A program made the translations under genes and the position numbers. Under the pieces are notes generated by a model. That model did no database searches. It saw only the letters and a program-made list of their open reading frames with translations, and was not told the DNA's origin. 64,000 nt of DNA from assembly GCF_000422485.1 (NCBI RefSeq), contig NZ_AULW01000016.1, positions 124,001-188,000 of the forward strand, read 5' to 3'. Source of the stretch: Paenibacillus pasadenensis DSM 19293 (GTDB lineage Bacteria; Bacillota; Bacilli; Paenibacillales; Paenibacillaceae). Positions 34,079-61,836 of the stretch are shown piece by piece (the stretch's first letter is position 1; each line of letters starts with the position of its first letter).

Positions 34079-34091
34079 GTTGCTACCTGGG

Positions 34092-34107: not shown

Positions 34108-34153
34108 TTGTCGAAATAACACTCTAACGTGATTAGACATGGAGTGTAGCTAA

Positions 34154-34789
34154 ATGGTGCCGAATCCAACATTTATTTATCATATAACGAGTATTGGGAA
34201 TTTACATTCGATCCTTAACAATAATGGTCTCGTTTGTATAAACCAATTACACGAGCACGAAAGCTCTTTCGTGAATATTGCTTATGAGCAAATTCAATCT
34301 AGACGCTCGGAAAAACAAGTTCCAATACATCCATACGGTAATCTACATGATTATGTTCCTTTTTACTTTGCGCCGCGGTCACCAATGTTGTATACAATTA
34401 ATCAAGGAAATGTGCCACAGTATCAAGGTGGTCAAAATCAAATTATATATTTGGTATCAACGGTACAACAAGTGTTATCAGAGAAAATCCCATTCGTGTT
34501 TACAGATGGACATGCGATCATGAGTTATTCCGAATTTTACAATGACCCGGTTGATTTAGAGCAAATTGACTGGGGAATAATGAGATCCCAATATTGGTAT
34601 GATACTACTGAATATCCTGACAGAAAACGGAAACGGCAGGCGGAGTTCTTGGCTTTTGAGTTTTTTCCCATTGACTCTATACTTGAAATTGGTGTAATTA
34701 ATGAAACTTACAAGGGTGAGGCACTTAAAATTTTGCGTAATAACTCGATTAATATACCTGTTGAGGTACGCAGAGAATGGTATTACTAA
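34154..34789 (+). CDS. darT: DarT-type DNA ADP-ribosyltransferase toxin
   Basis: 211 residues. DarT features: FIYHITSIGNLHSIL with GLVCIN at the N-terminus (NAD site), YVPFYFAPRSPMLYTI, and the catalytic Glu in RQAEFLAFEFFP (E164). The family attaches ADP-ribose to thymidine (or guanosine) in single-stranded DNA and blocks replication, inducing SOS; some protect against phage. Followed after 12 bases by its macrodomain antitoxin DarG, the standard order. AT-rich. GGAGTG precedes the ATG. All key motifs present, so probably active. Confidence 0.92.
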   Translation: MVPNPTFIYHITSIGNLHSILNNNGLVCINQLHEHESSFVNIAYEQIQSRRSEKQVPIHPYGNLHDYVPFYFAPRSPMLYTINQGNVPQYQGGQNQIIYLVSTVQQVLSEKIPFVFTDGHAIMSYSEFYNDPVDLEQIDWGIMRSQYWYDTTEYPDRKRKRQAEFLAFEFFPIDSILEIGVINETYKGEALKILRNNSINIPVEVRREWYY

Positions 34790-34801
34790 GGTGGTGAGTT
34801 T

Positions 34802-35849: not shown

Positions 35850-35888
35850 AATGCCCTGTCCAATTCAGCATTGGAAGGGCATTTTTTT
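35850..35888. terminator. Bidirectional terminator between darG and recombinase trio
   Basis: AATGCCCT-TCCAAT pairs with ATTGGA-AGGGCATT around TCAGC, followed by seven T; it touches the stop codon of the third recombinase. Confidence 0.9.
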
Positions 35889-36813
35889 AATCCTCGTCTA
35901 ATATCAAACTAACCGAAATGGGGAGGTACTCCAACGTGGTACCTAACAACTCATGCCTTAATTGTTGTTGAATTGCTCTCAAGTTTGCACCACTTTTAAG
36001 CATCAGAAATCCGGTAGTTCTTCTGAGATCATGGGGAATGACCCTTCTATTAATCCCGGCTTTTTCTGATATAGATCTGACTATAGATACCATTTGATTA
36101 TTATAGAGTTTACGTTTTTTTCTTGAGAATACATATGGACTAAAATCTTCTTCAATGGTCTCCTTATATTGTCTGAAGTGTTTCAGTTCGTTTGCTAGGA
36201 ACCCAGGAATGGCGACCCCCTTAGCATTTGTTTTTTGACCTTTGTTAACTATCACCATATTATTTTGAAAGTTGATCTGCTCAAATGAAAGGCAACATAT
36301 TTCATTGTTTCTAAGTCCGGTTGTAATGGCTGTCCAAATCAACAGATAGTAATATTTGGAGAAGGGCTCCTCTAGAAGGGCTGCTTTCAGGAGGTCTTTA
36401 CACTCAACCTCAGTCAAGAAATTAATATTTATATTTCGTTCATAATATTTGTTTGTATAATGGGCCATGGGGTTGTGGCTTATCATATTTACTCGATCAA
36501 GAAAGTTGAAAAAGCTCTTTAATGAACTAATTTTATTGTAAATGGTTTTATTTGAAAGCCCTGGATTTGATGATATAAGATACTGAACAAATTGATCAAT
36601 GAACGATTTGTTAATCGGTTCAAAATCATTTGATTCAACATAATATGTGAATCGGTCAAAATCTAGATTGCCTTCGAAACCGTTCTCCAAAAGAAATTCC
36701 TGAAGTGTGGCGAGAACCTTTTTGGTTGCTGAGCATGCTGGTTTCTTTAAGCCAGAGTGTTCACTCCAAGTTTTAAAATAAATAGAGTCGAATACAATTC
36801 CAGAGGGCGTCAT
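35887..36813 (-). CDS. Tyrosine recombinase, third of a trio
   Basis: 308 residues. Catalytic residues: first Arg in TTGLRNNEICCL, the HxxR box HDLRRTTGFLM, and a Tyr in LLGTTLEYLPI. The N-terminal SAM-like core-binding domain (FIDQFVQYLISSNPGLSNKTIYNKISSL) is present. It follows the second recombinase by 12 bases in the same operon. The HxxR box carries an extra Arg (DLRRT) and the LGH-type box is degenerate (RHELLG), so activity may depend on the partners. Confidence 0.88.
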   Translation of the reverse strand: MTPSGIVFDSIYFKTWSEHSGLKKPACSATKKVLATLQEFLLENGFEGNLDFDRFTYYVESNDFEPINKSFIDQFVQYLISSNPGLSNKTIYNKISSLKSFFNFLDRVNMISHNPMAHYTNKYYERNININFLTEVECKDLLKAALLEEPFSKYYYLLIWTAITTGLRNNEICCLSFEQINFQNNMVIVNKGQKTNAKGVAIPGFLANELKHFRQYKETIEEDFSPYVFSRKKRKLYNNQMVSIVRSISEKAGINRRVIPHDLRRTTGFLMLKSGANLRAIQQQLRHELLGTTLEYLPISVSLILDED

Positions 36814-36825
36814 TCCGTCTCCACC

Positions 36826-37920
36826 TCAATCAAATAAATTTGCCGCTAACGAGCGAGCGAAAGGATGTTTTTCGATTGCCTGTAGAAGCATGCTGTTAAA
36901 GAGTTGCAAATAAATGGTTGTTGTTTTTAATGATTTATGGCCAAGGAGTTTCGAAATACTGACAAGATCCACGCCCTCTTCTAAAGCGAACAATGCGAAA
37001 GAATGACGTAAAGAATGGACAGATAATCGCTCTTTCTCATCTGGAGAAATGGTCTGTGCCTCAGAAATTAACCCATCTAACATCTTTTGGACTGTACTAT
37101 CACTGATAGGGGTAACTCCCTTATCCGTTGAAAAAACATACAAATCAGTATAATTAGGCTGACTCTTAAGTGACCCGTATTTAAAACTTACATATTTTCT
37201 AAGAAGCTCTAATGATGTAGCTGTAATCCGCCGAGGAACTTTTTGAAGCTTTTTCCCCTTAACACGAACTTTTATATTCTGAGAATTATAGCAAATATCC
37301 CCGATTTGAAGTTGAGTCAACTCGTTAAGGCGAATACCGCTGCCAAGAAAAGTCCATAAGATGACAAAGTTTCTAAAACCATCGTTGGTCAGCCGCGATA
37401 AGTTTATAATTTCCTCTACTTGTTCTTTCGTAAAAGCCTTTGGAAGATCTTCATCAAACTCAACGTCAACTATCAAGGTTTCCTTGATCTTTTTAATATC
37501 TATTTCAAAGAATCGTGTGAAGGTAACAGTGAAAAAGTCCCTTAAAAATGAAGCTTTTTTTGATCGCGTATTTTGGGTTTTAACTGGCTTAAGGTAATCA
37601 AGTAGTACTTTGGGATTCTTCTCAAATGAAAGCAAAGATGGAGTTTCCGGCAGCGAATCGACATATGAAACAAACTGGTTCAATTCAGAACGATATGTCT
37701 TTTGAGTAGCTTCACTCTTTCGTCCGAATTCAGAGCTTTGTAAGTACCAATTTACGGCTTCCTCAAACGTTACATCTTTCCGTTCCTTTGGTTCTTCAAC
37801 GAAAATAAGATTGCTTCTTTCTAAAGCTTGTCTCATATGATCATGACTGTTGGTCGCAGCAAGTTTCTGCAAGTGGACCATCAGATTAGCGACAGGTGAG
37901 TTACCTTCTACCTTGAACAT
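36826..37920 (-). CDS. Tyrosine recombinase, second of a trio
   Basis: 364 residues. Core-binding domain (TFEEAVNWYLQSSEF, YRSELNQFVSYV), then the catalytic domain with GSGIRLNELTQLQ, VHSLRHSFALFALEEGV, LLGHKSLKTTTIYLQL: all of Arg, HxxR, H and Tyr are intact. ATG 37920 with GGAGATG 6 bases upstream; the longer frame to 38007 overlaps the preceding gene. It lies 4 bases after the first recombinase, so the genes are co-translated. Confidence 0.92.
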   Translation of the reverse strand: MFKVEGNSPVANLMVHLQKLAATNSHDHMRQALERSNLIFVEEPKERKDVTFEEAVNWYLQSSEFGRKSEATQKTYRSELNQFVSYVDSLPETPSLLSFEKNPKVLLDYLKPVKTQNTRSKKASFLRDFFTVTFTRFFEIDIKKIKETLIVDVEFDEDLPKAFTKEQVEEIINLSRLTNDGFRNFVILWTFLGSGIRLNELTQLQIGDICYNSQNIKVRVKGKKLQKVPRRITATSLELLRKYVSFKYGSLKSQPNYTDLYVFSTDKGVTPISDSTVQKMLDGLISEAQTISPDEKERLSVHSLRHSFALFALEEGVDLVSISKLLGHKSLKTTTIYLQLFNSMLLQAIEKHPFARSLAANLFD

Positions 37921-37924
37921 GAAA

Positions 37925-39454
37925 TCATCTCCATATAGAATCGATTTTTTGCATTGCATCATTAAGTTCTTGATTTTGCCTATGTAAATACTTTGAGGTC
38001 GTGTCAAGTCTGGTATGTCGAGCTAGACGTTTGATGATTTGCGGATGTACGTTTTTTCTAAGACTCAGTTTGGTGATAAATGTGTGCCTGAACAAATGAA
38101 GACCTCCGGGGAATGTCCAACCGGATATCAAAGAGTATAACTTGTATTTATCTAACATTTTTCCGTATAAAACTTTTTTAGATTGTCTTCCCTTAAAGAC
38201 AGATTTCTCGTCCGTACGAACTTTATATAGGGATTCTAAATATTGATAAAGTTTTTTCGGCAAGTGTAAGGGTACAGGTTTCCCAGCTTTGCCCTTACCC
38301 CGGATTTTGATTATCCTTGCTTGAAAATTAATATCTTCCCAATTTAGACGCTCGGCTTCACAGAATCGTAGTCCGAGATGCAGCAAGGATCCAAAAAAAG
38401 CTGTATCATACTCAGGATCATCCGAGTATCTAGCTATAGTATTGAAGAAATCTGATAATTGATCTTTATTGGGGATATCACGATGAAGATACCTCTGTGC
38501 TGATATTCCTCTTATTGAACCGATATTCTTTGGGATAATTCTGTTGTCATACAGATACTTAAAGAACGAAATCACACAGTAGAATTTATTGCTAACCGTT
38601 ATTTCGCTGTAAAGGCCTTTTGAATGGCAACGTTTAAGGTAATTTTCAAACTCTAAAATATGGTCTCTTTCGATTAACCAAACAGGTATTGCATTCGGTG
38701 AGAAATCATTGAAACTAGCGTAATTGTTAACAAGCCAGTTTAAAAACAACATTACGTCGCGGTTAATATCTTTTATATATCCTCCGGAACGACCTTCTGA
38801 TTGAATTTGGTCATTGAAGTTTTTCAAATAGGGATGCAGTTCATGATCGGCTAGTTTAGAGAGGATCCTTTTGTTTTGCTTGACAATATTGAATCTTCTT
38901 CCTGGGAAGTACAATTTAGCGATTTGGTTGAGCAAGAATTTCTTTATGTCTGAATTGACGTTTTTCAGACAATACTGAAAGTTTATTTCTGTAATATCAA
39001 GATCGTTAAGCTGCCAAATCGGCTTTTTAATGTATGTAGAGATCTGTTGTTGAAATTCCAGTGCTTCCTCGTAGAAGCCGTAAAGTTCGATCGGTGCCTT
39101 TGATGTCTGAATCCGTTTAAAATAATTTTTCACTTTGTCCAATTTGATACTTGGCTGAACTCTGTTTTCCCACAACCAATCAGCGATGTTCCCTTTAGTG
39201 TGGGGCAGATCAGTGGAGTTGTCATAACCTTCATAATTAAATAATGTATCCATAATGTTCCTCACTTTGCTCTTACTAACGTCCCATACGGCGTCAGTTG
39301 TAAGATGCACATCGTGAGGATTTTTTATTCCATTTATAAATTCTTCTGTGGAAGAAGCATTCCACAGAAATAATTCTGTTCCTTTCCACAGTTCGTTTTG
39401 TGGCTTCTGGTTGCTAATTAATTCATTAATTGCGTTTTTGGAATCTTTATCCAT
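37925..39454 (-). CDS. Tyrosine recombinase, first and largest of a trio
   Basis: 509 residues. The C-terminal catalytic domain has LHLGLRFCEAERLNWEDI, LHLFRHTFITKLSLRKNV and LARHTRLDTTSKYLHRQ (R, HxxR, H, Y complete). The N-terminal 240 residues are an extra, mostly helical region not typical of phage integrases. GGAGGTC before the ATG. Three tandem tyrosine recombinases on one strand are the hallmark of RIT (recombinase in trio) elements; here they may move only themselves or the whole sigK element. Confidence 0.92.
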   Translation of the reverse strand: MDKDSKNAINELISNQKPQNELWKGTELFLWNASSTEEFINGIKNPHDVHLTTDAVWDVSKSKVRNIMDTLFNYEGYDNSTDLPHTKGNIADWLWENRVQPSIKLDKVKNYFKRIQTSKAPIELYGFYEEALEFQQQISTYIKKPIWQLNDLDITEINFQYCLKNVNSDIKKFLLNQIAKLYFPGRRFNIVKQNKRILSKLADHELHPYLKNFNDQIQSEGRSGGYIKDINRDVMLFLNWLVNNYASFNDFSPNAIPVWLIERDHILEFENYLKRCHSKGLYSEITVSNKFYCVISFFKYLYDNRIIPKNIGSIRGISAQRYLHRDIPNKDQLSDFFNTIARYSDDPEYDTAFFGSLLHLGLRFCEAERLNWEDINFQARIIKIRGKGKAGKPVPLHLPKKLYQYLESLYKVRTDEKSVFKGRQSKKVLYGKMLDKYKLYSLISGWTFPGGLHLFRHTFITKLSLRKNVHPQIIKRLARHTRLDTTSKYLHRQNQELNDAMQKIDSIWR

Positions 39455-40056: not shown

Positions 40057-40086
40057 GAACGTACATTCGCTGACAATCTCTTGTCT
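40057..40086 (+). promoter_or_regulatory. Composite operator 1: LexA-like box plus GACAA-N4-TTGTC palindrome
   Basis: GAACGTACATTC (40057-40068, LexA-like with one change) is followed by GACAATCTCTTGTC (40072-40085, perfect palindrome of 5-bp arms). The 30 bases match those at 56316-56345 at 26 positions. Placed 37 bases before the probable start of the HIRAN gene. The palindrome is the best candidate binding site of the WYL regulator encoded next door (inference). TGACA inside it may double as a -35 box. Confidence 0.7.
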
Positions 40087-40122
40087 CTTTGATTCGTCAT
40101 AATGGAGGAAAGACATACGGGA

Positions 40123-40500
40123 GTGAGTACAGTGGACCAAATGATCTATGTCGCCGTTACGGGCACGCAGCACTATTACGGAGCTGATTTCCTAAAGCCG
40201 GGTCAAATCGTTCACTTAATCAAAGACCCGGATAATCCGCATGACCATGAAGCAATAAAGGTGGATATGATCCCATTGGGCAAAATCGGTTATGTCGCCA
40301 ACAGTCCGCATACCGTACCGAAAGGATGCCGGAGTGCCGGACGGATTTATGATCGATTTGAACAACATGTTTGCGGTATGGTGCGATTTGTCGTGAAGGA
40401 TACAGCCATTGTTGAACTTACACCGGGCATAGAGGAAATGTACATCATCAAAACGACAGAGGACGTTGTGTTTTCTCCTTGTCTAGGCAGGAAGAACTAG
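40123..40500 (+). CDS. Stand-alone HIRAN-domain protein
   Basis: About 125 residues. HIRAN signature: VAVTGTQHYYGADFLKPGQIVHLIKDPDNPHDHEAIKV split across the domain, then GKIGYVANSPHTV. HIRAN domains bind DNA ends, especially the 3'-OH of single strands, and appear as single proteins in prophage and defence loci. Start unclear: GTG 40123 (10 bases after GGAGGAAAG) is preferred; ATG 40102 lies on top of that site; ATG 40141 is also possible. First gene of the defence operon, 64 bases before the WYL gene. Confidence 0.82.
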   Translation: MSTVDQMIYVAVTGTQHYYGADFLKPGQIVHLIKDPDNPHDHEAIKVDMIPLGKIGYVANSPHTVPKGCRSAGRIYDRFEQHVCGMVRFVVKDTAIVELTPGIEEMYIIKTTEDVVFSPCLGRKN

Positions 40501-40564
40501 GTAAAAAGTAGAATCCCAATATGATAACCATTTACATTCCATATGCCACGATGGGAGCTATAAT

Positions 40565-41518
40565 ATGACGGATAAAGTGATACGACTCTTTAAAATGCTA
40601 CTTGCCATTCAAGCCAATCCGGGGATTTCAGCCAAAGAGCTGGCAGATAAATGTGAGACAACGGATCGAACGATTTACAGAGACTTGAGGATATTGGATT
40701 TAATCGCACCGATCACGAACGAGGGGTATGGGAAAGGGTACCGTTTTGTCGGTAATTTCGCCATGTATCCGCTGAATTTCACGGAACAGGAAGCGTTGGT
40801 ATTTTCTGTCCTGCCTTCCGTGTTGGACACCAGCAAACTGCCTCCAGGCTTTGAATCCGCCTACGACAAGGTGATGGCTACGCATGTGAAAGAAACCCGG
40901 AAGCGGTACGATACATTGGAAAATGTCGCGGACATGATCCAAATGGGCACCCCGGCTTATCGGGAGAACAATGCCAACTTTTTGCTGCCCATCATGGAAG
41001 CGATTATCGCCTGCAAGACGATCAGGGCTGTTTATCATACCCAGAGCCGGAATGAATTGACGGAGCGCGAAATTGATCCGTACTACCTGGTTCCAAGGGA
41101 TCAGCGGTTTTATTTGATCGGTTATTGTCGTGCCAAGCGGGAGATTCGCACATTTCGCGCCAGCCGTTTCCGGCATGTAGAGCTGACAGGAAATCATTTT
41201 GACAAGGGCGATTTCAGCATCGCGCAGTACATGAAACACACCTGGTCTATTGAACGCGGGGATTCCTTAATCACCTTCAAGATTAAATTCCATCCGGATG
41301 TCGCCCGCTATGTAAAGGAAGAAGAATTGTTCGTGAGACCGAAGATGACCGATCTGCCAGACGGCAGCTTATTATTCGAAGTAACCGTCAACCACGAGCG
41401 CGAATTTATGAATTGGGTGGTTCAGTACGGACCTTCGGCGGAGATCCTAGAACCTGCATCTGTGCGGGAAAAGTTTAAGGAACAGCTGCAACGTTGGGGA
41501 CAGTTGTATGGGCAGTAA
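40565..41518 (+). CDS. WYL-domain transcriptional regulator (YafY type)
   Basis: 317 residues. N-terminal winged helix IRLFKMLLAIQANPGISAKELADKCETTDRTIYRDLRIL; central WYL domain with IREIDPYYLVPRDQRFYLIGYCRAKREIRTFRASRF-type core and the C-terminal WCX domain (FKIKFHPDVARYV, EFMNWVVQYGPSAEILEP). WYL proteins act as ligand-controlled repressors in BREX, CBASS and CRISPR loci. The RBS is GGGAG. Probably controls this operon and the YprA operon through the shared palindromes. Confidence 0.93.
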   Translation: MTDKVIRLFKMLLAIQANPGISAKELADKCETTDRTIYRDLRILDLIAPITNEGYGKGYRFVGNFAMYPLNFTEQEALVFSVLPSVLDTSKLPPGFESAYDKVMATHVKETRKRYDTLENVADMIQMGTPAYRENNANFLLPIMEAIIACKTIRAVYHTQSRNELTEREIDPYYLVPRDQRFYLIGYCRAKREIRTFRASRFRHVELTGNHFDKGDFSIAQYMKHTWSIERGDSLITFKIKFHPDVARYVKEEELFVRPKMTDLPDGSLLFEVTVNHEREFMNWVVQYGPSAEILEPASVREKFKEQLQRWGQLYGQ

Positions 41519-41556
41519 GTGCAAATGTGCGTTTAACCGAAAGGAAGGTGTCCCTT

Positions 41557-44520
41557 GTGAAAGTAGAAGGTACATTTCTAGAACGTTTATATGATGCAAT
41601 CCGTAAAGAGCCTTTTCGCCGCAAAATTGTTATTGCTCCTTCCTACGTCGAAGGACAGTCCTGGCTTATGCGAATATGCCGGGAATTAGGGCCGGTTATG
41701 AACGTGGAGGTCCAAACGGTTCAATCCTTTGTAAGAAGTCAGGTTCAGTTCTTCCTGTATAAACAAGGGATGACATTAATCGGGGAGCAGCGTTCATTCT
41801 GGATTATCCATGATGTCATGGAACAAATGGCTTCCGAGCCGGATTCCTACATCTCCATGGATCAAGTAAAGCCCGGTATTGCCATGCATGTTCACCAAGC
41901 CATTATGGATTTACGCCGTGCCGGGGTGAAAGCAGAAGAACTGCGAAGCGATCAATTTTTGAGCCAGCAAAAAGGCATCTATGTCAGAAAGGTGCTGTCA
42001 GCGTATGAGCGCTTTCTGAATCAGCGGAGCTGGACCGATTTCCCCGGCCTTTTGTCGCATTTACCAACCCAATTGCCGGAAAACGTGGAGCTTATTCTGC
42101 CAGACCCTATGCCGCTTTCACCGGTTTCCGCTCGAATGTTGGAGCGGTTGTCAAACGGACGGATGACGAGGATTATAGCGGTTTCTTCCTTCACTGACGT
42201 CCAATCCACAATGCCGTTCGGAGAGGTTCAGTTCTATCATGCGACCGGAAGGCTGGCGGAGGTTCGCGAAGCATTGAGACGAATCATTCAGTGTAGGATT
42301 CCATTGGATGAAGTAGAGATGATCGTCCCGGATGAAGAATATGCGTTGGTTATTTCGACCATGTGTGCTTCTTTCGGTCTTCCCTCTTCCTTTGCAGACG
42401 GGCTGCCTGTGATTACATCCGGAATGGGAAGAGCCGCACATTTTCTGCTGAACTGGTTGGAGTCCGGTTATCAGGTGCGGCAGCTCGTATTGATGCTGCA
42501 GCAGCAATTGATCACGTTCTCCGATCGTGACCAAAGAATAACGAATGCAGATTGTATTCGAGCCCTGGAGAAAAGCGGAATCGGCTGGGGGAAAGAACGG
42601 TATATCAAGTTGCTGGTGGCAGGGCATGTTCGGTCCCAAGGGGATTCAGATGAAAAACCCGAAGAATGGGAGCGGACGGAACAACAACAGCGGGATGACG
42701 AGATCAAGAAGCATCTGACAAACCTCCTGGGAGAATTGTTTCCTGACGAAGCGGCGCTCTCCTCTCCTAAGGGAATCTGGGGATGGCTAGTTAACATCTT
42801 GGATCGATTTGGTGTATGCGGAACGGAAGAGGATGCGATCGTCCTGCAAGAAATGAAAGGTATCGCTAAAGAACTGCAGGAATGTCCTGTTCCGGACTCG
42901 ATGCCGTTTCAGCAAATGTTCTTGTATGCCCGAGACATGCTGCAGGAACTTCGAGTCGGGGTGCAACGGTTACCCAAGCCCGGATTCCTGTACATATCGA
43001 GTTTGTCGAACGGGGGGAACAGCGGGAGAAAACAGACGTTTCTTCTCGGGATGGATGAACATTCGTGGTCCGGGAATATCAGGCAAAATCCCATGCTTCT
43101 CGATGAAGAGTGCAGACGGATCGGTGCCGGGCTTCAAACAGCCGTGCAGAGACAAAGAGATCGGCAACGCCTTCGTGATGGTCGGCTTGGGATGATAAGC
43201 GGCAATATCACATTTAGCTTCTCGTCGTATGACTTGGCAGAAGGAGCGACAGCAAGCCCGGCTTTTCAACTTCTTCAGGTATTCCGAAAAGTATCCGGAG
43301 AAACGAATGCGGACTATGAGATGTTGCACCGAAGCTTAGGCGAACCTGTCGGGTATTTGGATGTAGAACAGCCATCCTCTACTGAGCTAAATGGACTGCC
43401 ATTAGACGGCTCTCATTATGTCTTCCGACAAATCCATGCGAATGTAAACCTTATGAGGGACCGGCAATCCTTCATCGAATCGGTCTATCCTTCGCTTCGT
43501 CAAGGCAGACTTGCACTCGAGGCGCGTGGCAGCTCGCAAGTGACGGAGCATGACGGATATATAGCGGGGGATGAATGGACTGATTATTGGAAAGGCCGAG
43601 ACGAACGGACGCTTAGCGCAAGTCAATTGGAGAAGTACGCGGAATGTCCGATGCGGTACTTTTTCCAATATGTGCTCAGGATTCGCGTGAAAGATCAGGT
43701 GACTTTTGATCGTACCTCCTGGCTGAAGCCGAATGAAAGAGGCTCGCTGCTGCACGAGGTTTATCGTCGTTATATGACGGAAGTCAGCGCAAGTAAAGTC
43801 ATGCCTATTACACACGATCATGCCCGTTTGCTTCGTATTGCTGAGGAGACGATTCTCTTGTATGCCGAGCGGATTCCGGCACCGAGCCCTCATGTGTTTG
43901 AGAGGGAACGGCAAGCGATGCTCCGGGATGTTGAAGTATTCTATCGCATGGAAGTGCAGGCTAAGACGGCTCCCCGGTTTTTCGAACAAGAGCTCATCGT
44001 GGACGGCCAGCCGTTGCACCTTGAGCTTGGCGAGGACATGGCGATTACGCTGCGCGGGATCGTCGACCGGATCGATCAAGTTGCGCCGCATCAATATCGA
44101 ATTATCGACTATAAGACCGGCAGTCCTCGGCCTTACAAGGAAAATGGCATGTTCGCAGGCGGCACGCAGCTGCAACATGCGCTTTACGCAATGGGGACGG
44201 AGCTTTGGATTCGGCAAACGGGTGTGGATTCTGATGCAAAAGTGCTTGAAGCGTCTTACGTCTTTCCAAGCGAACGGGGGCACGGGCAAGTGATTGCACG
44301 TTCGCAAACCGAACGGAATCGAGTCACCGCGGTGATCCGAGGAATCCTTTCGTCGATGGAACAGGGATTGTTTATTCCCGCTTCAAATCCTGCGGTCTGC
44401 CGATATTGCGACTATGCGGCTGTATGCGGAGAGCACGCAGAGATGATGGCCCATAAGCGAAAGGATGAAGCAAATTCGGAGCTGTTGCACACGCTGCTGG
44501 AGGTGGAGAACATTGAATGA
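41557..44520 (+). CDS. AddB-like PD-(D/E)XK nuclease/inactivated helicase
   Basis: 987 residues. It resembles AddB: a helicase-like body without a good Walker A, then a C-terminal RecB-type nuclease with LSASQLEKYAECPMRYFFQY, GSLLHEVYRRY, the catalytic set GIVDRIDQVAPHQYRIIDYKTG, and the cysteines CRYCDYAAVC, which with ECP form an AddB-type 4Fe-4S site. GTG 41557 behind AAGGAAGG. It is shorter than housekeeping AddB (about 1160) and is joined to an AddA-like gene and to a WYL regulator, so it is a defence paralogue, not the chromosomal recombination enzyme. Confidence 0.87.
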   Translation: MKVEGTFLERLYDAIRKEPFRRKIVIAPSYVEGQSWLMRICRELGPVMNVEVQTVQSFVRSQVQFFLYKQGMTLIGEQRSFWIIHDVMEQMASEPDSYISMDQVKPGIAMHVHQAIMDLRRAGVKAEELRSDQFLSQQKGIYVRKVLSAYERFLNQRSWTDFPGLLSHLPTQLPENVELILPDPMPLSPVSARMLERLSNGRMTRIIAVSSFTDVQSTMPFGEVQFYHATGRLAEVREALRRIIQCRIPLDEVEMIVPDEEYALVISTMCASFGLPSSFADGLPVITSGMGRAAHFLLNWLESGYQVRQLVLMLQQQLITFSDRDQRITNADCIRALEKSGIGWGKERYIKLLVAGHVRSQGDSDEKPEEWERTEQQQRDDEIKKHLTNLLGELFPDEAALSSPKGIWGWLVNILDRFGVCGTEEDAIVLQEMKGIAKELQECPVPDSMPFQQMFLYARDMLQELRVGVQRLPKPGFLYISSLSNGGNSGRKQTFLLGMDEHSWSGNIRQNPMLLDEECRRIGAGLQTAVQRQRDRQRLRDGRLGMISGNITFSFSSYDLAEGATASPAFQLLQVFRKVSGETNADYEMLHRSLGEPVGYLDVEQPSSTELNGLPLDGSHYVFRQIHANVNLMRDRQSFIESVYPSLRQGRLALEARGSSQVTEHDGYIAGDEWTDYWKGRDERTLSASQLEKYAECPMRYFFQYVLRIRVKDQVTFDRTSWLKPNERGSLLHEVYRRYMTEVSASKVMPITHDHARLLRIAEETILLYAERIPAPSPHVFERERQAMLRDVEVFYRMEVQAKTAPRFFEQELIVDGQPLHLELGEDMAITLRGIVDRIDQVAPHQYRIIDYKTGSPRPYKENGMFAGGTQLQHALYAMGTELWIRQTGVDSDAKVLEASYVFPSERGHGQVIARSQTERNRVTAVIRGILSSMEQGLFIPASNPAVCRYCDYAAVCGEHAEMMAHKRKDEANSELLHTLLEVENIE

Positions 44521-47500
44521 ACCATCCGATCAACAAGCTAGAAAGAGGATATTGGAGGAGCTGAACACGACCTTTCTGGTAGAAGCCGGTGCAGGCTCGG
44601 GAAAGACAACCAGCTTGGTCGGCAGATTGCTGGCACTCATCGAGTCCGGAACGGCGAAGATGGAGCATATTGCGGCGATCACCTTTACGAATAAAGCGGC
44701 GGATGAGATGAAGGAGCGTTTCCGCATTGCTTTAGAGCAGAAAACGGCTGATGTTGAAGGAGAAACTAGAGAACGAACGGAAGAAGCGTTGGCCAATCTG
44801 GACCAAATCTTCATTGGAACGATCCATGCGTTCTGTTCCTCCATGCTTCGCGAGCGACCGATTGAGGCCGGATTGGACCCTTCTTTCGAAGAAATGGATG
44901 ATGAAATGAATCGCGCGTTCCACGATCAATGCTGGGATGAATATCTGATTCAGCTGCAGGAGGAAGATAGTGAAGCACTTGCCTCCTTTGCCGAGGTGGG
45001 AATCGACGTCAGCATCCTGAAGAATGTCTATGATCGGGTATCCCTTTTTACGGATCTCCAAATCCCTTGCGAACCGGTTCATCGTCCTGATTTCAATCTC
45101 ATCCGGCTCTCCCTGCTTCCTATGATCGAAGAAGCCAACAGGTTTCTACCGACAGTTGAACCGGAAAAAGGGTGGGATAATCTTCAGGCAAAACTGCGAA
45201 CTGCTACTCGCATGCTGCGATTGACGGATGGACAGGACGATATGTTGATACTAACGCTTGCGAAGATGTTTGACTTCAAGCTGGATGTGAAGCAGTACAA
45301 ATGGACGGAAAAGAAGCAAGCCAAAGCCACCTCCGAACGTTTTCACGATTGGCAAATCACGGTCCTGTTCCCCTTCCTTCAATCGTGGCGGGAATATCTG
45401 TATCCCAAGGTCATTCAATTTGTCCTGCCTGCATTGGAGTATTGCAAAGAACGGCGATTGCAGGCAGGGAAGCTGAACTTTCAAGATCTTCTGATGTATG
45501 CATGCCGTCTGCTGCGTGATTACCCGGAGGTTCGCGCGTTTTTCGCCGGGCGCTACCAACGGCTAATGGTCGACGAATTTCAGGACACCGACCCGGTCCA
45601 AGCGGAAATGATGTTTCTCTTAACGGGTGCCGGCGATGATCCGAATGAACGGAATTGGCGGAAGCTTACGCCAAAGCCTGGCTCCTTGTTCGTCGTGGGC
45701 GACCCGAAACAGTCCATCTATCGTTTCCGCCGCGCGGATATTTCCATCTATAACGAGGTTAAATCGCGGATTCAAGCATGTGGAGATGTGCTTCACTTGA
45801 CCAGCAATTTCCGGTCCGTCGATGCGATCGGCGATTTTGTGAACGGGCAATTTGTCGGCAAGCTTCCCGTTCGGGAGACCGATGTTCAAGCCGCTTATGT
45901 CCGGATGGAAACGAATATACCGAATCCAAAGGGGAATAAGCGCGCGGGTCACGGGGTTTATGCACTCACTTACCCGAAAATTCCCGGAGGCAAGGAGGAA
46001 GTAGCGGCGGTTGACGCACGGCGTATTGCCGCATACATCGAGTGGGCTTGCCGTGATGGAAATTTGCACATTCAGGAGCGAGATGGTACATCTTGGGTAC
46101 TCAGAGAGGCACAGCCCAGCGATTTTCTTATATTGACAAGAACGAGACATTATTTGCATCTATACGCGGAAGAGCTGGAGAAAAGGGGCGTTGCCGCGGA
46201 AACCGTCGGAAGCTCCGCTCTATATCCCGAACTTCATACGCTGGGACAATTGGTCCTCTACCTGGCCGATCCGTTCGATCAAGTAGCGATGCTGAGTGTA
46301 TTGCGCGGACCACTATTCGGTGTTAGCGACAAGGAGCTGATTGCGTATCGTGCTCTAGGGAATGCGTGGTCGATCTATCGGCTGCCAGAGGAGTCATCCG
46401 AACAAGAGAATCGAGTTGCATCTGCATGCCGGAAACTTCGGGAATATGTTGGCTGGGTGAAAGAATTGCCTGCATGGGCAGCCTTGTACCGCCTTTTGGA
46501 GGATACCGGTCTCTTGCCTTATTCCACGATACAAGAGGCAGGGGCAAATCGATCGGGAACACTGCTTAAGATGTTGGAGCGATTGCAGCGTGACGCCATG
46601 CTCGCATCGGATTGGCATGAACTGGCGCATGCGATTTCGGCCATTCGGGAGAGCCAAGGTATGGAAAACGCCAGTCTCTACACAGGCAAAGGGCAATCGG
46701 TACGGATCATGAACGTGCATAAGGCAAAAGGGCTTGAAGCGCCAATCGTATTTCTAGCTTGTCCCTGTGGCGAAAAGGATCATAACGCTGACCAGTTTGT
46801 TGATCGTTCGGAGACAGAGGCCGCGGGCTATTTCCTGATCCAACAATCGAAAGGGTTTCAGAAAGAAACGATTGCCCAGCCGGTCGGCTGGGAAGCGATG
46901 AGCGTGCGGGAACGAGCCTTCATGCATGCGGAGCGGGATCGTCTTCTCTATGTCGCGGCGACAAGAGCAAAACAAATGTTGGTTGTCAGCCTCTACCCTG
47001 AGCAGCCGGCGAAATGCCCGTGGAGCTCGCTAATGGAGGGGATGGATCAAATCCGGGAGCTAGATGTTCCGGAAACGGATGTAGGGACTGAAGAGTGTGA
47101 TGAGGAGATGGAGCGAGATATCTCATCTATTGATTTGGGAGCATACTTGGCTCAGAGGGAGCAGGTGTTCCATCAGCTGCGCCAGCCTACTTACGCGGAA
47201 GCAACCGTTACCGGGCTGACGAAGAACTTGGCCGACACGCCGGAGTGGTCAGCCATTGGGAGGGGCCAATCATTCGGCAGTGTAATCCATAAGGGACTTG
47301 AGGCGGTCGGAAAAGGCCTTCCGATGAGTGAATTGCCTGCGTACGTTCAATATCTCTGCCAGTTCGAAGGGGTTGCAGAGGAGGATGCGGGAGATGCTCT
47401 GCCAACACTCCGGGAAGTGCTGGAAAGTGGACTCTGGCAACGTAGTCAGCAAGCTAAGCAACGGTTGTTTGAGATCCCGACCATGATGCATCAGAGAAAT

Positions 47501-47830
47501 GGGGAGGCAACGCCTTATCCCGCAACCGAGCAAAAGATGTTCGAAACAGCCGCCGCGGCATTGACGCAACAATCCAATAACGGCTTAAATCTCTTGGTGA
47601 AAGGTGTAATAGATTTCACCTTTGAAGAAGAGGATGGCTGGGTGATCGTCGACTTCAAGACCGATCAGCTTGACGAAGGCAAATTGCAGCAGTTTGTCCA
47701 TTTCTATGCGCCTCAAGTTCAGGCGTATGCTTTGGCTTGGTCTGAGACGTTCGGATATCGGGTGAAGGAAGCAGGATTATATTTTGTTAGTCTGCAGAAA
47801 TATGTCACATTAGGGCAGTCTGTTGTATAA
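44513..47830 (+). CDS. AddA-like UvrD-family helicase/nuclease
   Basis: 1105 residues. SF1A helicase: GAGSGKT at 26-32, TFTNKAADEMKER, GTIHAFCSSML, VDEFQDTDPVQ, GDPKQSIYRFRRAD, NVHKAKGLEAPIVFL and LLYVAATRAK; then a C-terminal nuclease GSVIHKGLE ... GVIDFTFEEEDGWVIVDFKTD. With its AddB-like partner it should unwind and cut linear DNA ends. TTG start 44513 overlaps the previous stop and follows GGAGGTGGAG. Ends 33 bases before hsdM; a TATAAT at its very end may start a separate hsd transcript. Confidence 0.9.
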   Translation: MNEPSDQQARKRILEELNTTFLVEAGAGSGKTTSLVGRLLALIESGTAKMEHIAAITFTNKAADEMKERFRIALEQKTADVEGETRERTEEALANLDQIFIGTIHAFCSSMLRERPIEAGLDPSFEEMDDEMNRAFHDQCWDEYLIQLQEEDSEALASFAEVGIDVSILKNVYDRVSLFTDLQIPCEPVHRPDFNLIRLSLLPMIEEANRFLPTVEPEKGWDNLQAKLRTATRMLRLTDGQDDMLILTLAKMFDFKLDVKQYKWTEKKQAKATSERFHDWQITVLFPFLQSWREYLYPKVIQFVLPALEYCKERRLQAGKLNFQDLLMYACRLLRDYPEVRAFFAGRYQRLMVDEFQDTDPVQAEMMFLLTGAGDDPNERNWRKLTPKPGSLFVVGDPKQSIYRFRRADISIYNEVKSRIQACGDVLHLTSNFRSVDAIGDFVNGQFVGKLPVRETDVQAAYVRMETNIPNPKGNKRAGHGVYALTYPKIPGGKEEVAAVDARRIAAYIEWACRDGNLHIQERDGTSWVLREAQPSDFLILTRTRHYLHLYAEELEKRGVAAETVGSSALYPELHTLGQLVLYLADPFDQVAMLSVLRGPLFGVSDKELIAYRALGNAWSIYRLPEESSEQENRVASACRKLREYVGWVKELPAWAALYRLLEDTGLLPYSTIQEAGANRSGTLLKMLERLQRDAMLASDWHELAHAISAIRESQGMENASLYTGKGQSVRIMNVHKAKGLEAPIVFLACPCGEKDHNADQFVDRSETEAAGYFLIQQSKGFQKETIAQPVGWEAMSVRERAFMHAERDRLLYVAATRAKQMLVVSLYPEQPAKCPWSSLMEGMDQIRELDVPETDVGTEECDEEMERDISSIDLGAYLAQREQVFHQLRQPTYAEATVTGLTKNLADTPEWSAIGRGQSFGSVIHKGLEAVGKGLPMSELPAYVQYLCQFEGVAEEDAGDALPTLREVLESGLWQRSQQAKQRLFEIPTMMHQRNGEATPYPATEQKMFETAAAALTQQSNNGLNLLVKGVIDFTFEEEDGWVIVDFKTDQLDEGKLQQFVHFYAPQVQAYALAWSETFGYRVKEAGLYFVSLQKYVTLGQSVV

Positions 47831-56215: not shown

Positions 56216-56252
56216 ACCCAAACAAAGCGGGTTGCTTTGTTTGGGTTTTTTT
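56216..56252 (+). terminator. Terminator after RloC-like gene
   Basis: Thirteen-base arms (56216-56228 with 56234-56246), loop GGGTT, seven T. Confidence 0.92.
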
Positions 56253-56315
56253 GTATTTCCACAGGACTTATTGCCTATATTGTCGAATTATCAATAAAGG
56301 GATTTTATTCCACAG

Positions 56316-56345
56316 GAACGTATATTCGATGACAACCTATTGTCT
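56316..56345 (+). promoter_or_regulatory. Composite operator 2: LexA-like box plus GACAA-N4-TTGTC palindrome
   Basis: GAACGTATATTC (56316-56327) followed by GACAACCTATTGTC (56331-56344). It differs from operator 1 at only 4 of 30 bases although the genes lie 16 kb apart. ATGACA (56329-56334), 17 bases and TATGTT (56352-56357) could be the promoter, so the palindrome would cover the -35 region. 54 bases before the first YprA gene. Confidence 0.7.
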
Positions 56346-56398
56346 AATCATTATGTTTAAATAGGATCAACAGACATTAGCGATGGAGGGATTAGGTA

Positions 56399-59083
56399 AT
56401 GGCATTTCTGAAATGCTCGGAATGCACCAATATGCTAAAGGCAATTCAAATTTCCAATAAAATCAGCCAAGTTGGGGAGCAACGATTACTTGAATATTCG
56501 CCAACCGGGATTAAATGCTCAGACTGGACTCCCGTAATTGAAAACCTCCGAGGATTCGCAGAAGGAATTTACTGTCCGTCTTGTTTTGCTATCGTTCCTC
56601 TAGAGAAAGAAGAATTTGTACTATGTGAGGATAACCGAATTCCTGGCGTCGTAAGTCATGAATTTTCATCAGAAGATGTACTGGATAAGCTGAAGAAGTT
56701 GGGCGAGGAAGAGGCCGCTGAGATTTATGTACATACACTTCCTGCCAAAGAGGCAACTTTTGCAAATATTCCTGAATCTACACCGGAGCCCATTAAGGAC
56801 GCCTTATATCGAATGGGAATTAAGCAGTTATATTCACACCAAGCAGAAACGGCCGATGCAGTCCATTCTGGTTCTAATGTTGTCTTGGTCACTTCAACGT
56901 CATCCGGAAAGACGTTGTCCTATAACCTGCCGATTCTTAGTCGTTTATATAACCATCCCGAAGAACGTGCGTTATACATATTTCCAACAAAAGCGTTAGC
57001 AAATGATCAGTTAGATCAAATTAGGCGTTTTGGCTTACAACAGGCGGAGAATCCTTCTTCCCTGGATGAGTGGTTTGAGACCCAGTTGCATTTGGGAGAT
57101 CGTCTGATTCATATTGGCCGGCTGGATGGGGATACCGAGAATGGGCCGCGGCAGCGAATCATGGAAAAAGCACAGGTATGGATGACGAATCCGGATATGA
57201 TTCATTACTCCATTCTCGGGCAAGTTCAGAAGGTGAAGTATGCGACCGCGCACCACATTCGAAATTATCTGCGGAACCTCAAATTTATCGTGCTTGATGA
57301 GATGCATATGTACCGAGGTACATTCGGAAGTCATGTCGCATTGGTACTCAGACGCCTGCTTAAGGTTTGTCGAGAACTTGGTAATACTCACAACATCCAG
57401 ATTATTACGAGCTCAGCAACGATTGAAAATCCTATTAGATTAGCAGAGGATCTTACAGGTCTTAGCGGATTCACCCTCATCAATACAGATGGTTCCGCCC
57501 ATCAGAAAAAGGGGATCGTCCTCTGGAATCCCGGTATGTCAGCCGATGAACAAGTCCGCCGCGCGCCTTCTACCGATGCCATTACGATGGCGAAACAGAT
57601 CATGACTGTTGATCAGAAAGTGATTAAGAGCATCATTTTTCAACCTTCTCGCAGTCAGACTATGGTATTTACCCGTTATATCAAAGACGTCTTGCGCCAG
57701 CCTCTCCGACTACCAAAAGAGAAAGTGGAAGGAGAAAAACTCGCGGCATTTTATACCGGAATACTGCCGAATGATACTCGGAAACGGATTATTGAGAGAC
57801 TCAAGTCCCACGACATTCATGTCATTATTACTACCAATGCCCTTGAAGTCGGGATTGATATCGGTGATTTGAGTCTTGCCGTTCTTGTTGGTTATCCCGG
57901 ATCGAAAGCGGCTTTCTCCCAACAGATCGGACGTGTTGGCCGCAAAGGCGAGGGTGTTGCCATACTGATCTGGCAGGATGAACCGCTTCAGCAGTATTAC
58001 ATGCGTAACCCGCTTGAATTTATCCATAAAGCTCCCGAGGTAGTTAGGATTAATCCAACAAATTACAAGTTGTTAGCCATGCACATCCCGTTACTAAGAG
58101 AAGAGCTCGGGAGAGAAGTCACGAAGGAAGACTTGCAGGACATGTTTCCTGGATTACTCGAAGATTATATTGAGACTGTACTGCAAGTAGCTGCAACAGC
58201 TAACGATGAGGCGACCGTTGATGACAAGTTTAGTCTTCGATCAATGTCTGGTAAAAATTACAGCGTAACCATTCGGGGACAAAATCAAACGATAGTAGAC
58301 AGTTTGGATGAGTGGAGTGCTCTTCGTGATTTTTATGAAGGCGCGATCTATTGGACTCCTGGAGAGAAAGGCTATCGAGTAGACTCTATCAATCGCAGAA
58401 AAGGTGAAATTATTGTATTGCCTATTCAGGAACTAACCTATTACACTCAATCTACTTATCGCGATATCATCGATATTATGCAGACTTATCAGAAGCAACA
58501 CATCGAAGGAATCGATATGGCTTATGGTGAACTGGAGATTAAGCGGAGTGTCTTCGGTTATAAAAAAGTTTACTTCGGACAGAAGCATGAGTCTGAGCAG
58601 GTTCAATTGGATCATCCGTCCGTCACCCGATTCACTCCGGAAGGAATGTGGGTTACACTAACGGATTCTCAATGGAGCCAATTGAAAAATGGCATTCAGG
58701 AGTTAGCGGATGAGGGCAGATCCATCGACTTATTGGCTGAAGCTTCCCTTCACGCTGCAGGTCACGCTATGACTTCGGTTATTCCTGACCTCATTATCTG
58801 CGACGCTAATGATTTTACAGGGTTTTCGGCGAGCGGGATGACGGCTTTTGCCAATAGACCTGTTATCGGCTTCTATGGCGAGAACGGGTCCGGTCTCGGG
58901 ACCATCGAAGCGATCTATGAGAAACTTCCGCAAGTGCTTCGAAAGGCTCTTGAACTTATTGAGAGCTGCCCTTGTGCCGAAGGATGTCCTAGCTGCGTGC
59001 AGCTCCCAGGTAAAGGGAATATTGAATTGTTCAAACCTGGAGCCAAAATGCTGCTGAAGATTTTGATAGAAGGGAACGATTAA
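56399..59083 (+). CDS. YprA/MrfA-family DEAD-box helicase, first of two
   Basis: 894 residues. N-terminal Cys pairs (CSEC and CPSC) may form a zinc site. The SF2 helicase has HQAETADAV (Q motif), TSTSSGKT (about 167), DEMH (about 299), SSATI, TTNALEVGIDIGDL and QQIGRVGRKG (about 509). The C-terminal DUF1998-type region ends in the four-Cys motif CPCAEGCPSC of MrfA-like enzymes. Members unwind 3'-5' and form the core of DISARM, Dpd and Druantia defence systems and of MrfAB repair. The RBS is GGAGGG. It lies 2 bases before its paralogue. Confidence 0.9.
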   Translation: MAFLKCSECTNMLKAIQISNKISQVGEQRLLEYSPTGIKCSDWTPVIENLRGFAEGIYCPSCFAIVPLEKEEFVLCEDNRIPGVVSHEFSSEDVLDKLKKLGEEEAAEIYVHTLPAKEATFANIPESTPEPIKDALYRMGIKQLYSHQAETADAVHSGSNVVLVTSTSSGKTLSYNLPILSRLYNHPEERALYIFPTKALANDQLDQIRRFGLQQAENPSSLDEWFETQLHLGDRLIHIGRLDGDTENGPRQRIMEKAQVWMTNPDMIHYSILGQVQKVKYATAHHIRNYLRNLKFIVLDEMHMYRGTFGSHVALVLRRLLKVCRELGNTHNIQIITSSATIENPIRLAEDLTGLSGFTLINTDGSAHQKKGIVLWNPGMSADEQVRRAPSTDAITMAKQIMTVDQKVIKSIIFQPSRSQTMVFTRYIKDVLRQPLRLPKEKVEGEKLAAFYTGILPNDTRKRIIERLKSHDIHVIITTNALEVGIDIGDLSLAVLVGYPGSKAAFSQQIGRVGRKGEGVAILIWQDEPLQQYYMRNPLEFIHKAPEVVRINPTNYKLLAMHIPLLREELGREVTKEDLQDMFPGLLEDYIETVLQVAATANDEATVDDKFSLRSMSGKNYSVTIRGQNQTIVDSLDEWSALRDFYEGAIYWTPGEKGYRVDSINRRKGEIIVLPIQELTYYTQSTYRDIIDIMQTYQKQHIEGIDMAYGELEIKRSVFGYKKVYFGQKHESEQVQLDHPSVTRFTPEGMWVTLTDSQWSQLKNGIQELADEGRSIDLLAEASLHAAGHAMTSVIPDLIICDANDFTGFSASGMTAFANRPVIGFYGENGSGLGTIEAIYEKLPQVLRKALELIESCPCAEGCPSCVQLPGKGNIELFKPGAKMLLKILIEGND

Positions 59084-59085
59084 GA

Positions 59086-61836
59086 ATGCCTGTAATCTGT
59101 TCCGCTTGCGGAGGCCAAAGACCTTACGGGGACTTCATTCAAATCAGCTATAAGGCGGATCCAAAGGGCTATTACCGTAAGATCCATCAACGGGCAAACG
59201 GGATTCGAGTTTCAGAATGGCGCTCCCTTGAACCCGATACGGAGTCCTATATAAACAAACCATCCGGCGTTTATTGTTCACATGATAGACATTCAATCTT
59301 GGACGACATGCTGACACCGGAAGAAATGGAATTGCTCACAGACCGAAGACTTCCTGTTCAACATGTATTCGATAGTGAAAAACTCGTCCAGAATTTGCTC
59401 GAACTCGGAACTCGTATTCGAAGTGACGTCCACGTGCATCAAATTGACGCCAACCAAGGCGCTTATGCTGACCAAATCCTTATGCCCAGTTGGCTGCAGC
59501 GGAAGCTTCATTCTCTGGGGATTAATAAACTGTATGAGCATCAAGGGGAAGCTATACAGAACATCCGTGAAGGCAGAAATGTCGTTCTCTGCACGAAAAC
59601 CGCATCTGGAAAATCATTGGCGTACAATGTTCCCATCATCGAAAAATTGGTTGCTGATCCGAATGCCTGTGCGCTTTATTTGGCCCCGTTCAAGGCATTA
59701 GTCGAGGACCAGTACGCTCACTTGAAAAAATGGGCTGATGATGTAGAAGAGCAGGGGAATCAAATCTCGCTTAATGGATTTTCTCGATTCTCTGTTAATG
59801 GACAGCAATTATCCGTTGGGGTTCTCCACGGGCAACGTAACGTTCCAGAGCATATGAGAAAAGATCAGGCATCTAGCTTCGTGTTCTCTGAGGGGCGCTA
59901 TTGGCTGACCAACGTACACTATCTGCATTTAATTCTTCAAGGTGCAGGTTCGCCTAAGGGAAAAGGCCCCCAACTGTTGCGCTTTCTGCAAAATCTTCGG
60001 TTTGTCGTCATTGATGAGCTGCATCAATACTCAGGCTTGTTAGGTTCAAAGGTTTCTTTGGTCCTTCGCAGATTAAGAATGTTATGTGACAGGTTGGGAA
60101 ATAAAAACGTCCAGTTTATTGCCTGCTCGGCTACAATTGCTAATCCAAAGTATCTAGCTGAAGAATTAACAGGAATGCGTGGAATGAAAGGATTTCATGA
60201 AATATCGGGAGTACAAGCGCCAGTAAAGAAGAAAGCGATTTTGATGTGGAATCCGGGCTTATCAGACGTTGAGCAAAAGAAAAGGGCCGTTGTTTCCGAT
60301 CTCTATGAGATTCTGCGCACGATCTACAAGGATGGAAGATGGCCGAGAAGTATCATTTTCACAAGCAACCGCCAGCAAGCCCAGCTTTTAAGTCGTGAAA
60401 TAAACATGATACTGCGCAGCCACCTTCATGATCATGGCGGGCTTTCGGCAGACGAACCACATGAGTTTTTTCTGCCGTACCATGCATACCTCACGCAAGA
60501 AGTTAAAGAACGAACCATACAAAAACTTGAGCAAGGCGAGATCCTTGGAGTGGTCACTACTAGCGCCCTAGAGGTCGGAATTGATGTGAAGTGTCTGGAT
60601 GTATGTATCTTACTCGGATACCCTGGCTCCCAGGCTTCCTTTTGGCAGCAGGCTGGACGAGTGGGACGCAGCAGAGACGGTGTGGTGATTATGATGCTTC
60701 AGGAAGAGCCATTGCAGCAATACTTTGCCCGCAACCCTGAAGAATTCTTTACGCTTTCGCCTGAATCTGCGGCGATCAATACAACGAATCCCAAGCTATT
60801 AAAGGAGCATCTCGCATACGCGGCTCACGAACTGGGAGGGACGTTGACGAATGCTATGAATTATGTTCGCTCTTCGGCGCTTCGCAAGGTGGTTGCGGAA
60901 GCAAGCGACCAGTGGCAGCAGATTGAAGGGAAACTACACTATCAAGGAGAAACACCCCGGTATCAAACTTTGTTCACTATGGGCGATACCTATACGGTTG
61001 TAACCAAGAACGGGTGGAATGAGGACATCCTATTTCAAAGTGTGGACGGACGTTCCTTGATTCGAGATTATCATGTAGACGCCGTATTTCTGGGACCTGA
61101 CAATCGTACCTTCTATAAGGTCAAGTGGGTCAATAACAAGCAACGCAAAGTGGTTGTAGAGCCAGTAAGAACGGATTATCATACTCGCGGAATTGTTCGT
61201 GATAGCATTGAAATCCATGATGTTACCAATCCTCTGATAAGTGACGCGGCGATCAAATCCAATCTTGGAAGCATCATCGTAAAACGAAGCACATTTGGCT
61301 ACAAAAAAATCTATAATCACGGCGCAATGCCTCTCGAAACCGTACAATTAACAAACACATACCCTGTCAGTTTCCAAACAGAGGCATTTTGGCTGATGTG
61401 GGACCACCAAGGAAGGAATGAACTTAGAGGTCTGCTCAAGGATGTGCAGAATCGCGAATCCATTGACTTGGAGACCCTGGTTGAGGGAAGCCTTCATGCC
61501 GTTGAACATGCCATAGCATCTGCGATACCGGCTGTTGTAAGGTGTAGTATGGCTGATTTTCAGCACACCTCTTTTTATTCTGGCTCGGCCTTGTTTGGAA
61601 TGCCCGGGATGTTCTTCTACGACAGCCAAGCAGGAGGCGGTTCGGGTATCGTCGAGGTTGTTGCGGAAAAGTTCGGGGTTCTCTTGGATAAAGCCCAACA
61701 GATCATTAGCAGCTGTGGTTGTTCAGACGGCTGTCCATCGTGCATTCAGTTATTTCATTGTGAAAAACAGAATGAGCCGCTGCATAAGGTTGGGGCTTTG
61801 TTGGTAATCAACCATTTACGAAAATCTTTCGGATAA
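59086..61836 (+). CDS. YprA/MrfA-family DEAD-box helicase, second of two
   Basis: 916 residues, same plan as the preceding gene: N-terminal CSACG, Q motif HQGEAIQNI, Walker A TKTASGKS (about 174), DELHQY (about 309), TTSALEVGIDVKCL, QQAGRVGRSRDG (about 521), and the C-terminal CGCSDGCPSC. Walker A ends in GKS rather than GKT. The two proteins align throughout, so they arose by duplication or form a heteromeric pair. Two such helicases in a row are rarely seen. Confidence 0.9.
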   Translation: MPVICSACGGQRPYGDFIQISYKADPKGYYRKIHQRANGIRVSEWRSLEPDTESYINKPSGVYCSHDRHSILDDMLTPEEMELLTDRRLPVQHVFDSEKLVQNLLELGTRIRSDVHVHQIDANQGAYADQILMPSWLQRKLHSLGINKLYEHQGEAIQNIREGRNVVLCTKTASGKSLAYNVPIIEKLVADPNACALYLAPFKALVEDQYAHLKKWADDVEEQGNQISLNGFSRFSVNGQQLSVGVLHGQRNVPEHMRKDQASSFVFSEGRYWLTNVHYLHLILQGAGSPKGKGPQLLRFLQNLRFVVIDELHQYSGLLGSKVSLVLRRLRMLCDRLGNKNVQFIACSATIANPKYLAEELTGMRGMKGFHEISGVQAPVKKKAILMWNPGLSDVEQKKRAVVSDLYEILRTIYKDGRWPRSIIFTSNRQQAQLLSREINMILRSHLHDHGGLSADEPHEFFLPYHAYLTQEVKERTIQKLEQGEILGVVTTSALEVGIDVKCLDVCILLGYPGSQASFWQQAGRVGRSRDGVVIMMLQEEPLQQYFARNPEEFFTLSPESAAINTTNPKLLKEHLAYAAHELGGTLTNAMNYVRSSALRKVVAEASDQWQQIEGKLHYQGETPRYQTLFTMGDTYTVVTKNGWNEDILFQSVDGRSLIRDYHVDAVFLGPDNRTFYKVKWVNNKQRKVVVEPVRTDYHTRGIVRDSIEIHDVTNPLISDAAIKSNLGSIIVKRSTFGYKKIYNHGAMPLETVQLTNTYPVSFQTEAFWLMWDHQGRNELRGLLKDVQNRESIDLETLVEGSLHAVEHAIASAIPAVVRCSMADFQHTSFYSGSALFGMPGMFFYDSQAGGGSGIVEVVAEKFGVLLDKAQQIISSCGCSDGCPSCIQLFHCEKQNEPLHKVGALLVINHLRKSFG

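Follow-up and report, generated by a model that had tools for sequence, protein, structure and literature searches.

The Y1 and Y2 genes and their products

The window, which is the whole stretch of 64,000 nucleotides of Paenibacillus pasadenensis DSM 19293 analysed here, contains two adjacent genes for SF2 helicases of the YprA/MrfA family. The first gene, Y1 (56399..59083), encodes 894 amino acids and the second, its paralogue Y2 (59086..61836), encodes 916; both genes, their domains and the elements of their leader are located on the forward strand. Both reading frames are intact and separated by 2 bp. Pfam assigned DEAD, Helicase_C and MrfA Zn-binding (MZB) domains to each protein, and the structure of MrfA from B. 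subtilis (6ZNP) could be aligned nearly full-length with both (E 2e-105 for Y1 and 2e-93 for Y2). Two full-length YprA/MrfA helicases two bases apart at 56399-61836, as a preliminary description of this DNA had reported, are therefore present, and as each of them is complete a split-gene artefact is ruled out. Both combine the SF2 DEAD/Helicase_C part and the C-terminal four-cysteine MZB domain in one chain, which is the hallmark of the YprA/MrfA family, and they share about 34% identity.

The MZB (DUF1998) domains were located by Pfam and by orthologue alignment at 58760..58999 in Y1 and at 61501..61746 in Y2, and contain the motif CxCxxGCPSC as CPCAEGCPSC and CGCSDGCPSC, respectively. In line with the preliminary description, both proteins of all 20 complete orthologue pairs retain this motif as well as helicase motifs I, II, III, V and VI. 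Motif I reads GKT in Y1 and GKS in Y2, motif II DEMH and DELH, motif III SAT and motif V LEVGID; motif VI (QQxGRxGR) is QQIGRVGR in Y1 and QQAGRVGR or a near variant in Y2. The previously noted difference in Walker A (SSGKT against ASGKS) was confirmed as TSTSSGKT in Y1 (56891..56914) and TKTASGKS in Y2 (59593..59616), each invariant in the 20 orthologues. Since both sequences fit the GK[T/S] consensus, the difference carries no functional weight and does not indicate that either motor is dead. No nuclease domain was found in Y1 or Y2. AlphaFold2 predictions from alignments of 13 rows reached a mean pLDDT of 41 for Y1 and 40 for Y2, and these models and the fold searches with them were set aside.

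Relative to MrfA, the first approximately 120 residues of both proteins are extra. The Zn-ribbon-type domain of Y1 (residues 1-118, 56399..56752) is homologous to the N-terminal domain of Y2 (residues 1-124, 59086..59457), with an hhalign probability of 97.9% and 31% identity. N-terminal cysteine pairs had been described for both proteins. This is correct for Y1, which has the two pairs C6/C9 and C59/C62, and for the pair C5/C8 of Y2; the second pair of Y2 is reduced to C64, with an invariant aspartate (D67) at the position of the fourth cysteine according to the orthologue alignment. Outside the pair no ORF of about 110 other loci matched this domain at E < 1. Because the domain is private to Y1 and Y2, the sequences support its presence in a common ancestor before one duplication event gave rise to both genes.

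Upstream of Y1 a hairpin scan identified a terminator-like structure with a 14-bp stem and a T run (56216..56246), which would close the upstream transcription unit; BREX-type loci show a different hairpin in the leader alignment. It is followed by a leader of about 150 bp (56248..56398), which according to the identity between loci is kept whatever system is located upstream. In loci with different upstream genes the identity drops to background at about -150 to -200, and at the other end it is at background beyond the stop codon of Y2; the conserved unit consists of the leader, Y1 and Y2. The leader alignment revealed a conserved element GGACTTATTGCCTATATTGTCGAA (GGACTT..tgCCTATaTTGTCGAA; 56264..56287), and the similar sequence GGACTTGTTGTCAA precedes the HIRAN operon mentioned below. 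An operator resembling a LexA/SOS box, GAACGTATATTC (56316..56327), follows the pattern GAAC[AG]TA[CT][AG]TTC and is present in 20 of 20 leaders. Scan and alignment placed a promoter-like sequence directly next to it (56329..56357; -35 ATGACA, 17-nt spacer, -10 TATGTT).

The consensus of the LexA box in B. subtilis is GAACN4GTTC (PMC4234289). All 20 leaders share at least 7 of its 8 specified bases, as expected for this type of operator; the match is exact in two of them and the others have one deviation, mostly ATTC for GTTC in the second half-site. Among the promoters of the genome itself, lexA has two GAACN4GTTC boxes and sbcD has one. Two sites in the 5.7 Mb genome match the 19-base pattern GAACRTAYRTTCNNTGACA exactly, whereas we would expect about 0.005 when calculating from its fixed positions, and both are located in the same island: one in the Y1 leader and one 16 kb upstream, before the HIRAN operon. 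The presence of the box in 20/20 leaders, the rarity of the 19-mer and the boxes of lexA and sbcD make a control of the module by LexA likely; as most boxes carry ATTC in the second half-site, a regulator other than LexA is conceivable. The second 19-mer, GAACGTACATTCGCTGACA at 40057-40075, precedes a HIRAN-WYL-AddB-like-AddA-like operon (40102-47830). Judged from this site, the operon is possibly a second damage-inducible unit of the island that is co-regulated with the pair. A further box, GAACATATATTC, was observed upstream of darT.

Distribution, evolution and genomic surroundings

A Y2 orthologue was found in 15 of 295 genomes of the same family, in 15 of 15 cases with Y1 directly upstream. 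Searches at the level of the order and the class revealed five further carriers, every one with a Y1-Y2 pair. Paenibacillus cookii, P. filicis, P. sediminis and P. oryzae are carriers known by name, three of them representing contigs already included among the loci. In all 21 distinct loci, which stem from related bacteria (Bacilli), include many near-copies and provide 20 complete orthologue pairs, the order is Y1-Y2 with a gap of 2 or 3 bp, and one gene never occurs alone. This recurrence argues against a pairing by chance. The orthologues are 74-99% (Y1) and 66-97% (Y2) identical to the proteins of the window.

In the tree, Y1 and Y2 form two ancient clades with 100% SH-aLRT support each, which are joined at 100% and match in their inner order. 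The pairwise distances of both proteins are correlated (Mantel r 0.97, reached in 0 of 2000 permutations), and dN/dS values of 0.04-0.13 for Y1 and Y2 alike indicate strong purifying selection. The preliminary description had proposed phylogeny as a check and had named a recent duplication limited to this strain as the contrary outcome; such a local event is ruled out by the two separate sister clades. Its suggestion of an obligate pairing is strongly supported by the 21 loci, the sister clades and the correlated distances.

The best NCBIfam model for both proteins was the MrfA-like TIGR03817 with 437 and 380 bits, which is under the model cut-off of 874. The models for DruE, DrmA and DpdJ all scored below TIGR03817, DruE1 with 117-130 bits and in a fragmentary manner. 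Since the DruE3 and DrmA profiles had no match at strict cut-offs in 250 Bacilli, ARMADA-type plasmid loci were used as references for the defence branch. These contain a YprA helicase, a BrxHII-like helicase and an N6-methylase, or the reversed order, and one from E. coli is type II-like; they were assigned to ARMADA by the gene order given in PMC12458937, and DISARM and Dpd were left out of the tree. A branch with 100% support separates six ARMADA-type helicases from Y1 and Y2, which appear to belong to the MrfA side of the family; the tree is small, was calculated in quick mode with SH-aLRT as the sole support measure and contains some long branches, which makes this deep placement less sure than the Y1 and Y2 clades. 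Two other arrangements do not group with the pair in the tree: two YprA genes with a 4 bp overlap (915 and 777 aa) in a Chthonomonas bin (L079:1946-7023), and YprA, an RNase H-like protein of the MrfB type and YprA in succession on a Haloplanus plasmid (L163:5572-12310).

The canonical mrfA-mrfB genes are located on another contig of the genome, which rejects Y1 or Y2 as the housekeeping MrfA. In the window and in the neighbour clusters identified, no DEDDh exonuclease of the MrfB type (RNase_H_2) was detected beside the pair; an MrfAB repair system, characterized by an adjacent MrfB gene, is thus not what is encoded here. Phage records gave no match to Y1, viral contigs contained only relatives with about 27% identity, and relatives on plasmids reached about 31% or less. 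One genome with a full pair has in addition a second Y2 fragment (G254:C2:52343-52702; residues 1-120, 98% identical).

The island around the pair has a GC content of 45% compared with 66% in the neighbourhood. Its left part contains DarTG, three tyrosine recombinases, the HIRAN-WYL-AddB-like-AddA-like operon, a Type I RM system and an AAA_13 ATPase, followed by the pair. To the right are a 224-aa ORF starting 45 bp behind Y2, McrB, McrC, Mokosh MkoA/MkoB, two ORFs without a match, a gene for an Hsp70-like protein and finally a serine recombinase. DarTG consists of the DarT ADP-ribosyltransferase and a macro-domain partner (34066-35833), and the row of tyrosine recombinases, a trio-type element, marks the left end (35887-39454, reverse strand); a similar-looking trio is located right of the pair in L039, L046, L075, L181 and L182. 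In L007 (8673-11171) ORFs of 679 and 144 aa between Mokosh MkoA/MkoB and the Hsp70-like gene had no Pfam or PADLOC match. An ORF with an HD_4 domain (about 305 aa), often shortened or broken, adjoins the pair or its McrBC neighbour in L040, L041, L042, L044, L046, L047, L075, L181, L182 and L184.

The upstream system varies from locus to locus and is Type I RM, BREX (PglX, PglZ, BrxL) together with DRT2, or Type III RM. Downstream, an McrBC-like gene pair was found in 17 of 21 loci, including L050, which was counted solely on a weak PADLOC match. It belongs to one of three types, of which two are variants of McrB/McrC and the third is a DUF2357/PD-(D/E)XK relative. McrC of the PF10117 type is located downstream in 12/21 loci and occurs anywhere in 20/152 genomes of the family; the nominal p of 9e-7 treats related loci as independent and is indicative only.

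Interpretation of the Y1-Y2 module

Considering its defined limits, the obligate pairing, the great age of both clades, the intact motors and the conserved operator-like site, Y1-Y2 may represent a self-contained, probably SOS-inducible and movable pair of helicases for defence or DNA processing, which is carried in swappable islands; to this reading we give about even chances. The module would be carried in swappable defence islands of the Paenibacillales and some other Bacilli, and binding of LexA to the operator at its own promoter would probably keep it silent until the SOS response. DNA damage, for instance by phage replication or restriction, would act as the trigger. The two adjacent genes, probably coupled in translation, would then be expressed jointly. 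Each subunit has a complete ATP-driven SF2 motor with the OB/connector/Zn canopy of MrfA; in MrfA, which unwinds in 3'-5' direction, this canopy is stabilised by Zn and covers the motor (summarised from the literature in PMC12458937). The 3'-tailed ends, gaps or forks of phage DNA or cleaved DNA would be the joint substrate of the two proteins, which would most likely form a heterodimer or pass one strand between them. The unwound DNA would be exposed to nucleases encoded nearby (McrBC, RM) or elsewhere, and the outcome may be antiphage.

A physical heterodimer is plausible. DruE, a defence helicase of the YprA family, is dimeric and a long 3' ssDNA tail reaches the second protomer (PMC13192584). 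A heteromeric DruE-like machine fits two complete, co-produced and co-evolving motors with a private N-terminal domain; against this, dimerisation of two motors is not a necessity, as MrfA and SftH work singly or together with an exonuclease. The flanking defence systems (BREX PglX/PglZ/BrxL, DRT2, Type I/III RM, McrBC and Mokosh) provide a supporting context, but defence islands also carry repair genes and the position alone is no proof of an antiphage function.

The pair could alternatively be an SOS-induced repair module, in which two MrfA-like helicases mend adducts or ends, including self-inflicted McrBC or RM cuts. Among relatives of solved structure the closest is MrfA, a helicase that acts in mitomycin repair (PMC11194089), in the tree the pair is found on the side of MrfA and apart from ARMADA, and the leader contains a LexA-type box. 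Restriction enzymes are also consistently encoded nearby, and mending of their cuts would select the pair to sit beside McrBC and RM. However, the presence in 15/295 genomes is patchy, near-identical copies occur across different families in low-GC islands flanked by recombinases, no MrfB-like exonuclease is located beside the pair, and the canonical mrfAB is retained elsewhere in the genome. We consider a repair function instead of defence less likely than the reading above.

The frequent McrBC-like neighbours, the enrichment of PF10117 McrC and the distance of just 45 bp between Y2 and the next ORF in the window would agree with Y1-Y2 as an accessory subunit of the downstream McrBC-like system, without a function alone. 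In contrast, four loci have no McrBC-like neighbour in the stretch read, the three McrBC-like types are not close homologues, the conservation ends at the Y2 stop codon and the p value is affected by the relatedness of the loci, so that this explanation is improbable. The division into one motor and one recognition subunit, also suggested in the preliminary description, would mean that one of the two proteins no longer unwinds DNA and serves for its recognition alone. This is very improbable because the motifs of both are conserved in 20 orthologue pairs under strong purifying selection, although the evolution of Y2 is faster and an aspartate has replaced one cysteine among its N-terminal Zn ligands.

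Comparison with known systems

The helicase pair favoured here as a mobile defence or DNA-processing module shares with MrfA/YprA of B. subtilis (6ZNP) the domain order RecA1, RecA2, OB/connector and MZB and the helicase motifs. In contrast to MrfA, Y1 and Y2 are 140-165 aa longer, have the private N-terminal Zn-type domain and are tandem paralogues; in contrast to MrfA/MrfB, they have no MrfB beside them, reside in defence islands and possess a leader with a LexA-type box. The helicases of ARMADA and Druantia (DruE) are likewise members of the YprA family in defence islands, but with 1700-2100 aa, large insertions and often nuclease domains, which Y1 and Y2 lack. With 894 and 916 aa, the latter also differ from the helicase that typifies Druantia, a YprA protein of about 1500-2100 aa to which DruE profiles align over the entire length. 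BREX PglX is located upstream in only 6/21 loci, behind a terminator-like hairpin.

DISARM DrmA/DrmB and the DISARM-like cassettes noted earlier beside McrBC (PMC11090510) likewise combine a pair of helicase-family genes with nearby McrBC. In DISARM, however, one helicase is split over two genes, with the helicase and the DUF1998 part in separate proteins, whereas Y1 and Y2 are each complete and contain both parts.

A recent census of about 52,000 YprA helicases distinguishes a repair branch, which has no conserved context or is tied to MrfB, from a defence branch with DISARM, Dpd, Druantia, ARMADA, BRIGADE and TALON (PMC12458937). Systems with two YprA helicases are described there only for BRIGADE of haloarchaea, which belongs to other helicase clades and has extra genes. 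Like Y1-Y2, BRIGADE has two YprA helicases in one system, but these are ARMADA-like and Dpd-like and accompanied by 7-deazaguanine genes and a PLD or PD-(D/E)XK nuclease according to the same source. The genes annotated around Y1-Y2 in the window include none for 7-deazaguanine biosynthesis, and the hosts of the module are Bacilli. Our literature search, which covered few subscription papers and the census without its supplementary tables, found no description of the Y1-Y2 pair.

The data point to Y1-Y2 as an unrecognised two-gene module in a helicase family of which the closest member studied so far has a role in DNA repair. It provides a clean natural case of a gene duplication turned into an obligate motor pair, and as a sharply bounded unit it can be directly cloned and tested. 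As the pair is on the MrfA side of our small tree, yet has a fixed partner and defence surroundings, the division between repair and defence may be incomplete. It is possible, though short of probable, that Y1-Y2 constitutes a defence class of its own, an obligate heteromeric translocase built from two complete, ancient YprA motors and switched on by SOS. Such a class would have arisen from the MrfA side of the family, which is regarded as repair-only.
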